Virus record (IMG/VR): IMGVR_UViG_3300046522_000430
Location: 1 to 20,313 of that record
Strand: one strand, 5' to 3'
Length of the DNA: 20,313 bases
From: a virus
The position numbers and the translations under genes are program-made. A model generated the notes under the pieces. That model saw only the letters and a list, made by a program, of their open reading frames with translations. It was not told where the DNA came from and searched no databases. This document shows positions 6,966 to 11,170 of the stretch, one piece after another; the stretch's first letter is position 1; every line of letters begins with the position of its first letter.

Positions 6966-7589
6966 ATGACTGCACAACAACACACCATCCCCGAAGGCTA
7001 CCGCGTCGACGCGCAACGTCGTCTCGTTGCTGAAAGCATGATCAAGCCGCTTGACCTGGCCCGCGATGCCTTGGTGCTGGAACTGGTTGAAAAGGCCCGC
7101 GTGGCCAGCAAAGGCTTGGCCCTCTTCAAGGCTGCTGCATTCGGCGACATTGATGCCTTTGTCGACATGAGCGCCGAGGAATACGGCGCCAAGCTGGGTG
7201 GCAAGAAAGGCAACGTCAGCCTGATCAGCTTCGATGGCCGCTACAAAATCCAACGAGCCATTCAGGAAAGCATCGCCTTCGACGAACGCCTTCAGGCCGC
7301 GCGGTCCTTGATCGACGAATGCCTTGAAGAGTGGACAGCTGGGGCTCGTCCCGAAGTGGTGACGCTGGTTAACGATGCATTCCGTACCGATACCAAAGGC
7401 GACATTCGCACGGCGCGAGTGCTGGCCCTGCGTCGGTTGGAAATTGCTGATGAGCGCTGGCAGCGCGCCATGCAGGCCATCGGCGAAGCCTGTCAGGTGA
7501 TCGGTTCCAAGTCCTACATCCGCGTGTATGAGCGCGTTGGCGACACCGATCAATACCAGCCGATCAGCCTTGATATCGCGGGGGTGTGA
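6966..7589 (+). CDS. DUF3164 family phage protein
   Basis: 207 residues with AAGGAA at 6953-6958. The sequence is characteristic of DUF3164: an N-terminal PEGYRVDAQRRLVAESMIKPLD, a central SAEEYGAKLGGKKGNVSLISFDGRYKI, and a C-terminal EIADERWQRAMQAIGEACQVIGSKSYIRVYER. The family is common in Mu-like phages of proteobacteria, near the replication genes, and is sometimes mislabelled a sulfate transporter; no membrane segments are present, so that label is wrong. Molecular function is unknown. It stands where coliphage Mu and many relatives have Gam, and no Gam gene is visible in this window. Confidence 0.88.
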   Translation: MTAQQHTIPEGYRVDAQRRLVAESMIKPLDLARDALVLELVEKARVASKGLALFKAAAFGDIDAFVDMSAEEYGAKLGGKKGNVSLISFDGRYKIQRAIQESIAFDERLQAARSLIDECLEEWTAGARPEVVTLVNDAFRTDTKGDIRTARVLALRRLEIADERWQRAMQAIGEACQVIGSKSYIRVYERVGDTDQYQPISLDIAGV

Positions 7590-7590
7590 C

Positions 7591-8007
7591 ATGCAGCGCT
7601 ATCACGACACCCGCAGTGATCCACTGCCAGTCCACTCGCCGCAACTCAACGTCGAGCGCGCCAACCTTGAACGCTTGACGGCAGAGTTCCTGATGCACGG
7701 CGGCGAGATCCAGGAAGTGGGGCATCAGATGAGCAGCGCACCGGCGACCTTCACCATCAACCCCGAACGTTCGCCGGTCTATGCCCATTTGTTTGCACCT
7801 TCCGCCCCACTGGTGACCTCGGAAGTCGTAGTGCCCGTCAAGGTTGAGGCTTCCTCGCCGGACACTGGCAAGCACGCGGCACTGATTATGGCTGATGCAG
7901 CCATGGGCAACTCTCCCAAGTGGATCGCCCGCAAGCACCACATGAGCGAGAAGTATGTTCGCCAGGTTGCCCGCGACTACCACATCACTTTCCACCATCA
8001 ACGATAG
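7591..8007 (+). CDS. Early phage protein with C-terminal HTH-like segment
   Basis: 138 residues. ATG at 7591 directly follows the DUF3164 stop, with GGGGGTG upstream. The first ~90 residues are not recognisable. The last ~45 (HAALIMADAAMGNSPKWIARKHHMSEKYVRQVARDYHI) look like a helix-turn-helix of the recombinase/sigma-4 type: helix, turn at MSEK, recognition helix VRQVARDYH. DNA binding is therefore plausible. I cannot assign a family name. Confidence 0.65.
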   Translation: MQRYHDTRSDPLPVHSPQLNVERANLERLTAEFLMHGGEIQEVGHQMSSAPATFTINPERSPVYAHLFAPSAPLVTSEVVVPVKVEASSPDTGKHAALIMADAAMGNSPKWIARKHHMSEKYVRQVARDYHITFHHQR

Positions 8008-8015
8008 GACGCCCC

Positions 8016-8237
8016 ATGGCCAAGATCACCATCACTCTGGAAGACCGCCGTGAAGACAACGGCAGGTCTTCGGTCGCCATTGATATGACCGGCGTACCGA
8101 CCAACCCGCTGGGTGCACCCCGTCAGACAGAAGCCGTGCGCATCTTCAACAAGGTGTTTGACCTGGTCGCCAGCGAAAAGATGCTGGGGGCTGTCCCAGC
8201 GTGTCGCTGGCAACCGGGCACCACAACCCTTCACTGA
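8016..8237 (+). CDS. Small early phage protein ending inside hammerhead 1
   Basis: 73 residues, ATG 8 bases after the previous stop with only a weak GGAC upstream. The N-terminal MAKITITLEDRREDNGRSSVAIDM is beta-strand-like, and the rest (TEAVRIFNKVFDLVASEKMLGA) helical. Similar short beta/alpha proteins beginning MAKITIT are frequent in Mu-like Pseudomonas phages, with no known function. Its UGA stop (8235-8237) lies in the 5' stem II strand of the first ribozyme, so translation ends exactly where the RNA must fold. Confidence 0.7.
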   Translation: MAKITITLEDRREDNGRSSVAIDMTGVPTNPLGAPRQTEAVRIFNKVFDLVASEKMLGAVPACRWQPGTTTLH

Positions 8238-8300
8238 GCGAAACCGCCCCGGCCATCCGGGGTGGTCTGCCAGGCGTGGTTGCCTGGTACTGATGAGCAG
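8234..8300 (+). ncRNA. Type II hammerhead self-cleaving ribozyme, copy 1
   Basis: All core residues are present in permuted order: GAAA (8240-8243); stem III 8244-8252 with 8257-8265, nine continuous pairs including one G-U, loop CCAT; U16.1 and C17 at 8266-8267; stem I 8268-8275 with 8282-8289, eight pairs, loop GTGGTT; CUGAUGA at 8290-8296; stem II from CTGAGC (8234-8239) and GCAG (8297-8300). Cleavage is expected between C8267 and U8268. Stem II is short: two contiguous pairs, or one pair, a two-base bulge and three pairs. Hammerheads of type II are known from comparative searches in bacteria; this element is recognised from its core and fold, not from a database hit. Confidence 0.88.
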
Positions 8301-8311
8301 CCGAGGACGAG

Positions 8312-8728
8312 ATGGAACAAGTGGATTGGGATGCATTGAAGGAGCAGATGGCAAGCCCGTGGGGCTGCATGAAGCTCAAGTGTGATGGTTTTGAGATCAG
8401 CCTTTCGCAAGAGACTGATCGCACCAAAAAGAGTTGGTCGACGGTGGTTTACGTAGATGGATATTTGAAGGGGATCTGGTTGGATTGCGACCACAGATCA
8501 GGCGAACCAAAGCACGAAGAAACTCGCCGTTTTTATCGCAAGGTGACTCGTGCTCTTCATACCAAAAAAGAGATCGAGGCCTACCGAAAAATCTGGGGCA
8601 AGCGCAAGGCTACCGAGATGGTGGCGGTCAAATTCATCACCTATGACTGGTCCTGGAAAAGCTTCAGCGCCCTCAAAAAACACCTGCTGGCCAACAACAC
8701 CAGCATCGCCCGTATTTTCGAGATCTGA
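8312..8728 (+). CDS. Hammerhead-flanked cassette gene 1, unknown phage protein
   Basis: 138 residues. ATG at 8312 with GAGGA at 8303-8307. It begins 44 nt after the ribozyme 1 cut site. The protein is mixed alpha/beta: a strand-rich first half (CMKLKCDGFEISLSQ, STVVYVDGYLKGIWLDC) and a basic helical second half (RRFYRKVTRALHTKKEIEAYRKIWGKRKATEM) ending SFSALKKHLLANNTSIARIFEI. Proteins of this look occur in Pseudomonas phages without assigned function. It forms a two-gene unit with the DUF2786 gene that follows 4 bases later. Confidence 0.7.
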   Translation: MEQVDWDALKEQMASPWGCMKLKCDGFEISLSQETDRTKKSWSTVVYVDGYLKGIWLDCDHRSGEPKHEETRRFYRKVTRALHTKKEIEAYRKIWGKRKATEMVAVKFITYDWSWKSFSALKKHLLANNTSIARIFEI

Positions 8729-8732
8729 CGAA

Positions 8733-9404
8733 ATGGACCACAGCAAAGCCATAGAAAAAATCAAGAAGCTGCTGCGCCTCGCCGCCAGCGACAACCCACA
8801 CGAAGCCGCCGCAGCCATGCGCCAGGCCCGCGCCATGATGGAGAAATTCCGTATTGAAGAGGCAGATGTCGCGCTCTCCAATATCCAGGAATCGGCCTCA
8901 CGAAGTGGCTCCAAGATTAATCCGGTTCGCTGGGAAGCCAGCCTGGCAGGGTGCGTAAAACGTGCGTACGCCTGTGAGTTGCTGTTCATGGCAGGAGTAG
9001 GCGAATGGCGTTTCATTGGCGAGTTCGCCGAGGTGGCCAGCTACACCATGACGATTCTTCTCCGTCAGATCCGCCAGGCTCGCCGAGACTTCATCGCCAA
9101 CAATCTCAAGCGCTGCAAGGCTTCGACAAAGACCAAGCGCGCCGACGTGTTTTGTGATGCCTGGGTTTACCAGGTGCGCAAACAAGTCATGGCGTTTGCT
9201 GGTAATGACACCCCGTCAGCAGCAGCTTCTGCATACATGCTTCAGCATCACCCGGAAACCAAGCAGTCAACTCCAACGGACCGCAACACCAGCAAGCGGT
9301 TGAGCAATCGGACAGTGACAGATGCCATGCACGGCATTCTTGCCGCGACCGACGTTCGCCTTAATCACGGAGTAAATGGCCAGGAACAGCTTGCCCTGAA
9401 CTGA
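8733..9404 (+). CDS. DUF2786 domain protein, hammerhead-flanked cassette gene 2
   Basis: 223 residues. The first 40 (SKAIEKIKKLLRLAASDNPHE ... AMMEKFRI) match DUF2786, a short helical domain found in phage and bacterial proteins, usually with an unassigned C-terminal region. The remaining part contains a possible metal-binding or nucleic-acid region (FVASYTMTILLRQIRQARRDFI-like helix, then basic RCKASTKTKRADVF). No SD is seen; the ATG is 4 bases after the preceding stop, so translational coupling is likely. The UGA stop (9402-9404) lies in the stem II strand of ribozyme 2, just as the previous unit ends in ribozyme 1. Confidence 0.8.
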   Translation: MDHSKAIEKIKKLLRLAASDNPHEAAAAMRQARAMMEKFRIEEADVALSNIQESASRSGSKINPVRWEASLAGCVKRAYACELLFMAGVGEWRFIGEFAEVASYTMTILLRQIRQARRDFIANNLKRCKASTKTKRADVFCDAWVYQVRKQVMAFAGNDTPSAAASAYMLQHHPETKQSTPTDRNTSKRLSNRTVTDAMHGILAATDVRLNHGVNGQEQLALN

Positions 9405-9467
9405 GCGAAACCACCCTGGTATTCCGGGGCGGTCTGCCGGACGTGGTTGTCCGGTACTGATGAGCAG
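9401..9467 (+). ncRNA. Type II hammerhead self-cleaving ribozyme, copy 2
   Basis: Same architecture 1167 bases downstream. GAAA 9407-9410; stem III 9411-9419 with 9424-9432, loop TATT, with U-G at 9417-9426 and an A-C mismatch at 9413-9430 where copy 1 has G-U; U16.1-C17 at 9433-9434; stem I 9435-9442 with 9449-9456, loop GTGGTT; CUGAUGA 9457-9463; stem II CTGAGC (9401-9406) with GCAG (9464-9467). Stem I differs from copy 1 by two full base-pair swaps (A-U to G-C, G-C to A-U), so pairing is conserved while sequence is not. Predicted cut between 9434 and 9435. Confidence 0.88.
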
Positions 9468-9473
9468 CCACCC

Positions 9474-9752
9474 ATGACAGACGAAACACCAAAACAGCGC
9501 ATAACCCGTTTGGCACGCGAACGTAAACGTGCCCAGCGCAAGCGCGACAAGGATAAGCGCCTGGCCATGGGAGCCAGCAAACTCAAGATGGAAATTTTCA
9601 TCGGTACCAAAAACGAGCTGGAACAGATCCGCACTGCCGGGGCATTCGACGAAACAGAACACGCACTCACCATGGCGATTCATGGTGCTGCTGAACTGTC
9701 CCGACGCGACCCGGCTGCGTTCCAGGCACTGATCAAAGGAGGAAGACAGTGA
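9474..9752 (+). CDS. Small basic early phage protein
   Basis: 92 residues. The ATG at 9474 is 39 bases after the ribozyme 2 cleavage site and has no recognisable SD; an in-frame TTG at 9447 lies inside the ribozyme and is less likely. The N-terminal third is very basic (RITRLARERKRAQRKRDKDKR), the rest MEIFIGTKNELEQIRTAGAF...ALTMAIHGAAELSRRD resembles a small regulator fold, possibly ribbon-helix-helix. Nucleic-acid binding is plausible, function unknown. Its stop overlaps the GTG of gemA. Confidence 0.68.
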   Translation: MTDETPKQRITRLARERKRAQRKRDKDKRLAMGASKLKMEIFIGTKNELEQIRTAGAFDETEHALTMAIHGAAELSRRDPAAFQALIKGGRQ

Positions 9753-10165
9753 GTACACGAAACCTGCAACTGAGCAAAATCCATATTGCCAAGAAACATT
9801 TAGGGCTGGACGACGAAACCTACCGCGCCTTGTTGGCCCGCGTGGCGGGTGTGCGTTCAGCCAAAGACCTGAATCCACGCCAGATCGGCGCCGTCCTAGC
9901 CGAGTTCACCCGTTTGGGCTGGGAGTCGGCACCGGCTAAAAAGCACGGCCGAAAAACACCGGCCGTGGCGCCAGACCGGGCAAAACTGGTGGGAAAAATA
10001 GAGGCCTTTCTCGCCGAAGCAAAACGTTCCTGGGCGTATGCCGATGGCATGGCCATGCGCATGTTCAAGGTCGAGCGCGTGGAGTGGCTGGACTCTGGGC
10101 AACTCCAAAAAATGGTTGCTGCATTGACCTATGATGCCCGTCGTCACGCGAGGCCTGAGCGATGA
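9749..10165 (+). CDS. gemA: GemA (Mu gp16 family, DUF1018) regulatory protein
   Basis: 138 residues. GTG start at 9749 overlaps the previous stop and has a strong AAAGGAGG at 9735-9742. The sequence LSKIHIAKKHLGLDDETYRALLARVAGVRSAKDLNPRQIGAVL is the hallmark of the GemA/Mu gp16 family, and the C-terminus (KLVGKIEAFLAEAKRSWAYADGMAMRMF ... LQKMVAALTYDARR) also fits. In Mu, GemA affects host gene expression and DNA relaxation; the biochemical mechanism is unclear. The adjacent mor-type gene keeps the usual Mu order. Confidence 0.92.
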   Translation: MSTRNLQLSKIHIAKKHLGLDDETYRALLARVAGVRSAKDLNPRQIGAVLAEFTRLGWESAPAKKHGRKTPAVAPDRAKLVGKIEAFLAEAKRSWAYADGMAMRMFKVERVEWLDSGQLQKMVAALTYDARRHARPER

Positions 10166-10599
10166 ACGAAGAACTATTCCCTGACGACACCGATAAGCTA
10201 GACCCTGAAAAGGTTCTGGCTCACATGGAAACACCCACCGTTCTGGCGCGCTGGGAAGGCACCTTGGGCGAGATGGTCAGGATAGCGGAGGTCGAGCTGC
10301 GCAAGGCGCTGAACAACTCTGATAACGCTCCGGAACTGGCCCGTCGTGTGGTTTATGCCATCTGCGAACACCAGGGCGGTACGGTGATGTATTTGCCACG
10401 CGGCACAATCCTCAAGCGGGCCATGCGCGACGCTGCTATCTATCAGGACTGGCGGGACAAAGGAGTTAAACCTGCGGATATGGTCAGCAAGTACGATCTG
10501 TCCAGTCAAACGATTTATGACATCATTGCCCGTCAACGGGCGCTGCACCGTAAAAGCGAACCCGACTTATTTGGCTTTGATGACGGGACGATTCATTAG
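10162..10599 (+). CDS. Mor/C family transcription activator of middle or late genes
   Basis: 145 residues, ATGA overlap with gemA. The family signature is present: EHQGGTVMYLPRG (about 70-81), the beta-strand dimer region, followed by a helix-turn-helix VKPADMVSKYDLSSQTIYDIIARQRALHR (about 102-130). In Mu, Mor binds an inverted repeat and recruits RNA polymerase to the middle promoter. Here it closes the early operon and the next phage genes are lysis and morphogenesis, so it likely activates them from a site downstream. The dyad at 11240-11276 is one candidate site. Confidence 0.9.
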   Translation: MNEELFPDDTDKLDPEKVLAHMETPTVLARWEGTLGEMVRIAEVELRKALNNSDNAPELARRVVYAICEHQGGTVMYLPRGTILKRAMRDAAIYQDWRDKGVKPADMVSKYDLSSQTIYDIIARQRALHRKSEPDLFGFDDGTIH

Positions 10600-10621
10600 T
10601 GATGCTCATAGGAGAGCGGGT

Positions 10622-11170
10622 ATGAAAATACTGAATGGTTTAATCGGCATGTTTCTCGGGTTGGCCGTTTCTTTATCTGCTCACGCTGTCGTCGACACCC
10701 CCAAGCATGCATTCAAAAACACATACGATGAGTTGCTGGAAGAGCTTCCGAACGTCCGCAGCAAAATGGAAGAAAGTAAACCCGCTGATGATGGGCTGAA
10801 GCATTGGGTCGGAGCCGTTCCGATTGGGAGCGCATCTTCAGTTATCGAAATCAGTGGCAAAGATAAAAATGCAATAACGAAACTGACAGTGATATTGCTT
10901 TTTGATACCAAAACCACAGACGCCGACTATGACAACGCCGAAGCTCTTAGGGACGTCCTGTTCCAGGGGCTTTTAGGTAGAGGTGCTGCTTTCAGTCTTC
11001 TGAACGATTTTTGGGTGAAAGAATTGGCGCGTCAGCAGCCCATCATCAGGGCTGGCGGAACACCAAAGGGTGGTACCAAGAAAATTGGAAATGGAACATC
11101 AGAAGTAAGCCTTGTACTTATAAGCGGTCCCGGCGTGCTATCGGCTATTTACTCAATGAAGTTGCTGTAG
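10622..11170 (+). CDS. Exported protein of unknown function (cargo gene)
   Basis: 182 residues, ATG at 10622 preceded by GGAGAG. The N-terminus is a classic Sec signal peptide: MKIL, hydrophobic core NGLIGMFLGLAVSLS, and cleavage site AHA-VV near residue 22. The mature part has alternating strands and helices (AITKLTVILLFDTKTTDADYDNAEALRDVLFQGLLGR) and no family I recognise. It is richer in A/T and in AAA/GAT codons than its neighbours and sits between the activator and the lysis genes, followed by its own hairpin, so it looks like inserted cargo. A role in the envelope, such as superinfection exclusion, is only a guess. Confidence 0.7.
   Translation: MKILNGLIGMFLGLAVSLSAHAVVDTPKHAFKNTYDELLEELPNVRSKMEESKPADDGLKHWVGAVPIGSASSVIEISGKDKNAITKLTVILLFDTKTTDADYDNAEALRDVLFQGLLGRGAAFSLLNDFWVKELARQQPIIRAGGTPKGGTKKIGNGTSEVSLVLISGPGVLSAIYSMKLL

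Follow-up and report, generated by a model that had tools for sequence, protein, structure and literature searches.

A Mu-like phage has, in its early operon, two type II hammerhead ribozymes that flank a block of two genes, and these ribozymes probably act as RNA punctuation dividing the early message. The DNA analyzed (here called the window), an IMG/VR virus record, is 20,313 bases long, and its plus strand carries the early genes for a Mu A transposase, a B-like ATPase, GemA, and Mor. An initial annotation, made from the sequence letters, had placed a ribozyme in a Mu-like early operon, a setting that the Mu A transposase, GemA, and Mor genes on the same strand confirmed.

Results

A covariance-model scan of the 20-kb window with 4,227 Rfam families matched Hammerhead_II (RF02276) at two plus-strand positions, 8236 to 8306 (copy 1; 68.8 bits, E of 1e-12) and 9403 to 9473 (copy 2; 61.4 bits, E of 9e-11). 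Both scores exceed the gathering score of 37 bits, and copy 1 reached 99.1 bits with a model built from our own alignment (see below). The initial annotation had suggested such a scan as a check on copy 1, which passed it. No hammerhead was matched on the minus strand, and beyond copies 1 and 2 there was no further hammerhead in the 20,313 bases. Direct reading located the core CUGANGA, GAAA, the A15.1-U16.1 pair, and H at position 17; the covariance-model alignment and pair counts showed loops closing stems I and III, with stem II open. The two copies are identical at 57 of 71 positions and, like the clustered prophage hammerheads, share a strand and bracket a block of phage genes. The window elements are two genuine type II hammerhead ribozymes, and neither match arose by chance. 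Elsewhere in the window, close to its left end, a TwoAYGGAY RNA was matched on the minus strand (646 to 710; 46 bits, cutoff 43), upstream of the phage repressor region.

Read along the plus strand, the order at copy 1 is the stop codon UGA, the 3' strand of stem II, GAA, stem III, C17, stem I, CUGAUGA, and the 5' strand of stem II. The stop codon (TGA, 8235 to 8237) of the upstream gene (8016 to 8237) adjoins the ribozyme directly. Direct reading placed the stem II strands, GC in each case, at 8238-8239 and 8297-8298, G12-A13-A14 at 8240 to 8242, and CUGAUGA at 8290 to 8296. Alignment and covariation defined the two hairpins: stem III has 10 pairs, including A15.1-U16.1 and one G-U (8243 to 8252 with 8257 to 8266; −19.4 kcal/mol for 8243 to 8266), and stem I has eight, one of them G-U (8268 to 8275 with 8282 to 8289; −14.0 kcal/mol for 8268 to 8289). 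Between them lies C17, the cleavage-site nucleotide, at 8267. The cut predicted initially, between 8267 and 8268, agrees with both direct reading and the covariance-model alignment; for copy 2 the predicted cut is 9434/9435. The eight pairs annotated for stem I were recovered, as was the stem III hairpin, for which the earlier count of nine had omitted the A15.1-U16.1 pair.

Stem II of copy 1 has two pairs. Loop I bases U8277-G8278-G8279 (UGG, 8277 to 8279) form a pseudoknot with C8301-C8302-G8303, and these pairs are kept in 61 of 61 aligned ribozymes. Such a pseudoknot between loop I and the 3' tail is usual in type II hammerheads, in which stem II is commonly down to two pairs (PMC3088659). 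Because the pseudoknot is present, a two-pair stem II is sufficient; a bulged four-pair stem II was considered and found unnecessary, as the pseudoknot accounts for the short stem. The initial annotation had given two contiguous pairs or a bulged four as the options for stem II and had suggested a loop contact with the bulged stem II; the contact is instead the pseudoknot between loop I and the 3' tail. Its end coordinate for the element, 8302, is also too short: the pseudoknot reaches G8303, which puts the end at 8303 or later. The pseudoknot tail CCG overlaps the Shine-Dalgarno sequence GAGGA (8303 to 8307) of the gene at 8312 (8301 to 8307 overall), so that G8303 is both a pseudoknot base and the first base of GAGGA. 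Copy 2 has one A×C mismatch in stem III, a pseudoknot of GUGG (9443 to 9446) with CCAC (9468 to 9471), and no clear Shine-Dalgarno sequence.

Relatives were gathered mainly by similarity of the neighboring proteins rather than of the ribozyme, and 61 distinct ribozymes, selected for an intact core, were aligned. Standard pairs occupied 97.4% of pair cells. Two-sided changes affected 11 pairs (shuffles, 6.4) and 91 cells (shuffles, 23.4), values attained in 0 of 500 shuffles, although the shuffle controls disregard relatedness and the counts are therefore not probabilities. When the partner strand was slid by 1 to 3 bases, pairing fell to 28 to 48%. All three pseudoknot pairs were standard in 61 of 61 rows, and one of them had two-sided changes; the first pair was UG, UA, or CG, and the second was GC or AU. 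All ten scored core positions were invariant in these 61 core-selected relatives, and N7 varied (23% minor); N7 is the single hammerhead core position known to be free. C17 was C in 81 of 81 distinct copies. The alignment-built model yielded 108 copies in 66 sources, some of them overlapping, and no broken-core copy was seen among these 108 matches (E of ≤0.01, at loci mostly chosen by protein). This pattern of conservation is what would be expected for selection on catalysis rather than on a mere hairpin or DNA repeat. Together with the Rfam match, the strict conservation of the core and the compensatory changes in relatives uphold the original reading of copy 1 as a full type II core with its invariant residues.

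The fit between ribozyme and gene junction was measured in 81 distinct copies from Mu-like Pseudomonas phages. In 67 of 81 the upstream stop codon ended exactly 3 nt upstream of G12 (0.4% for random positions), and in 78 of 81 this distance was 2 to 4 nt (1.1%). An ATG opening an ORF of 60 codons or more began 10 to 16 nt after the core in 77 of 81, compared with 4.8% of random positions. For copy 1 the start codon was at +16 from the core, with few exceptions, whether the next gene encoded phrog_5671, a DUF2786 protein, or a small Cys-rich protein. Both window ribozymes are on the sense strand of the operon with stop and start codons abutting. The ribozyme exactly fills the gene junction in Mu-like Pseudomonas phages; in other phage groups it is also intergenic, with a looser stop-codon distance.

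The cassette between the window ribozymes consists of two plus-strand genes of unassigned function, the first a phrog_5671 gene (8312 to 8728) and the second a phrog_421 gene with DUF2786 and DUF7168 domains (8733 to 9404). Copy 2 is followed, on the same strand, by phrog_4093 (9474 to 9752), GemA (9749 to 10165), and Mor (10162 to 10599). Searches with the cargo proteins returned no Pfam domain other than DUF2786/DUF7168, no defense-gene match, and no convincing solved relative. Upstream of copy 1, the plus-strand early gene at 7591 to 8007 encodes a protein that weakly matches the SutA RNA-polymerase-binding domain (PF20661, residues 22 to 49, E of 6e-5, under the curated cutoff).

Among loci, the genes flanking this slot are largely constant and its contents vary: phrog_5671 plus DUF2786 as in the window, either of these alone, a 65- to 71-amino-acid protein plus DUF2786, phrog_5671 plus an unrelated 99-amino-acid protein, and others. 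At eight loci (L128, L129, L131, L135, L137, L144, L177, and L178) a Cys-rich protein of 65 to 71 amino acids (CGDCVHCRRC...C) replaces phrog_5671 after copy 1. The slot is empty, with a single ribozyme, in L176, L181, JBD30, and MP22. The left-hand alignment of L176 to the window runs through copy 1 and the right-hand one starts from copy 2; the two overlap only at the L176 ribozyme (L176 4646 to 4721). HKPH_J3 (L123) and JBD30 (L188) are ∼96% alike; in HKPH_J3, the 3' edge of the ribozyme is followed directly by an inserted DUF2786 gene. Prophage genes flanked by hammerheads have been reported to vary (PMC3088659), and the slot is a clear worked example of that known principle.

One or two hammerheads were present in 17 of the 19 records searched whole, and none of the 19 had more; the Mu-like genomes have at most two copies each, at one fixed locus, among the loci examined. 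Two same-strand copies flank a cassette at 38 distinct loci, with a spacing of 480 to 1,170 nt. The same element is present in the widely used laboratory phages JBD30, MP22, and JBD24, and Casadabanvirus-group phages such as JBD30 and MP22 have one hammerhead each; phage B3, with its distant DUF2786 gene, yielded no hammerhead. The similarity of copy 1 to copy 1 of other genomes (0.875) slightly exceeded that to its own partner (0.851), so that recent gene conversion between the two was rejected and both copies look old and stable. Also rejected was the idea that stem I is kept different between copies to prevent cross-pairing: 5 of 38 genomes share a stem I strand, where shuffling expects 4.5 (P of 0.77).

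Discussion

Family membership suggests that the window ribozymes self-cleave in their phage, and splitting of the transcript in the cell would be a reasonable consequence. Each ribozyme occupies the space that separates a stop codon from the ribosome-binding region of the following gene and would cut itself, after C8267 and C9434, soon after synthesis. The cuts at 8267/8268 and 9434/9435 would release a 1,167-nt RNA with the phrog_5671 and DUF2786/DUF7168 genes and leave an early message in three parts: the genes as far as 8237, the cassette with its two genes, and phrog_4093-GemA-Mor. Since the type II form closes stems I and III, there would be a hairpin at each new end, with the upstream mRNA ending in the strong stem III hairpin and the downstream mRNA beginning with that of stem I (median energies, −16.6 and −14.0 kcal/mol, respectively). 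The pieces would then be translated and decay separately; we infer these separate fates, as well as a protective role for the end hairpins. A consensus scan detected no promoter or terminator on the plus strand from 7500 to 10700. Stem III was also considered as an intrinsic terminator and rejected, as no T-run follows it and no plus-strand terminator was found.

Minimum-energy folds of the isolated 77-mers differ from the hammerhead fold, as computed by programs that ignore the pseudoknot and the tertiary contact, and such pseudoknot-blind folding is a known blind spot; the centroid fold of copy 1 contains stems I and III. These predicted non-hammerhead folds count mildly against the cleavage model, and the stem III mismatch of copy 2 is a further point against it. 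Tandem prophage hammerheads have been shown to cleave in vitro and, in the Agrobacterium case, also in E. coli (PMC3088659). In the same study, 4 of 18 hammerheads that fit the consensus were inactive in vitro, which counts against cleavage here.

A possible but less likely alternative is that the folded ribozyme serves mainly as a switch of translation, in which the pseudoknot takes G8303, the first Shine-Dalgarno base, so that ribosome loading and ribozyme folding are mutually exclusive; cleavage would free the site, or ribosomes would delay cleavage. The tail CCGAGGA of copy 1 is common to the pseudoknot and the Shine-Dalgarno sequence, and the start is fixed at +16 irrespective of the downstream gene, but such spacing could simply come with an inherited connector. 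Where the Shine-Dalgarno G is present, the loop U is sometimes C, which restores a Watson-Crick pair (CG in 4 rows); against this, copy 2 is without a clear Shine-Dalgarno sequence. Computed energies for opening the region from the Shine-Dalgarno sequence to the AUG gave mixed results: the median fell from 2.8 to 1.7 kcal/mol after cleavage, with opening easier in 50 of 81 copies, but window copy 1 showed no drop (3.1 to 3.6 kcal/mol). A speculative reading is that in Mu-like Pseudomonas phages a standard connector composed of stop codon, type II hammerhead, and ribosome-binding site bounds an accessory-gene slot, that incoming genes would be RNA-insulated already on arrival, and that ribosome loading and ribozyme folding might compete through the shared Shine-Dalgarno base.

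It is improbable that the ribozymes are repeated DNA connectors that allow accessory genes to be swapped by homologous recombination, their RNA activity being incidental. Such a role would suit the variable slot contents, the alignment of the single ribozyme of the empty genome L176 to both window copies, and the ∼96%-alike pair JBD30 and HKPH_J3, distinguished by a DUF2786 gene that adjoins the ribozyme on its 3' side. However, a DNA repeat need not retain an invariant unpaired catalytic core with a free N7 and compensated stems. Use in recombination may coexist with an RNA role, and the readings set out here can coexist.

The 5'-OH and 2',3'-cyclic phosphate ends that such cleavage would leave are substrates of the RtcB ligase. 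That the ribozyme pair excises and circularizes the 1,167-nt cassette RNA would be in keeping with same-strand pairs around a cassette at 38 distinct loci 480 to 1,170 nt apart, but it is very unlikely because single-ribozyme phages are common (JBD30, MP22, and L176 among many) and because a search for circles in the prophage cases already published found none (PMC3088659); moreover, the cassette consists of coding genes and is not a replicon.

The biological role of phage hammerheads has, to our knowledge, been open since 2011; the exact fit to stop codon and ribosome-binding site and the sometimes-empty slot narrow the possible roles to early-message processing, and the presence of the element in single-ribozyme phages such as JBD30 and MP22 makes that role genetically tractable. 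In 2011, Perreault et al. described prophage genes flanked by hammerheads (PMC3088659), and those elements (RF02276) resemble the window ribozymes in their permuted core, short stem II, pseudoknot between loop I and the tail, and clustering around single genes or short blocks. In contrast to them, the Mu-like Pseudomonas phages show a conserved exact fit to stop and start codons and a varying cargo between two copies. The tandem hammerheads that surround ardA in an Agrobacterium tumefaciens prophage (PMC3088659), which cleave in vitro and in E. coli, also number several per operon, but the genes and host are different and the arrangement is triple. GenBank record OQ594957 (Pseudomonas phage vB_Pae_LESphi4, a Casadabanvirus) annotates a hammerhead as an ncRNA (RF02276), of the same type and in the same operon position as in the window, before a phrog_4093-like gene, GemA, and Mor; that phage has one ribozyme and no cassette, whereas the window has two ribozymes and a two-gene cassette.

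As in retrozymes and viroid-like circular RNAs, a pair of hammerheads enclosing a unit of comparable size could free an RNA whose ends can be ligated. Unlike those RNAs, the window has coding genes in a DNA phage operon, ribozymes of type II form, relatives in which single-copy genomes are common, and no sign of RNA replication. Retrozymes are tandem copies around a noncoding unit spread by RNA circles; here the unit is two genes, and no Mu-like genome has more than two copies, which occupy one fixed locus among the loci examined. In the open-licence literature, we found nothing on Mu-like phages or DUF2786 together with a hammerhead and no description of a fit between stop codon, ribozyme, and Shine-Dalgarno sequence or of a gene slot in Mu-like phages. 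The kind of ribozyme is already known in phages, and the window pair is a well-supported addition.

Larger arrays were observed outside the Mu-like group. Streptomyces phage Puginator has ten type II hammerheads genome-wide, seven of them within 5 kb (L193, PP978857.1 45703 to 50773); most end a few to ∼20 bases before an annotated gene, giving an operon punctuated by ribozymes. Nine type II hammerhead matches were found in L045 (IMG/VR 3300046664_000025) and seven in L058 (3300046520_000064), some only ∼70 bases apart; one match in L045 (3150 to 3222, reverse complement) has an altered GAAA core.
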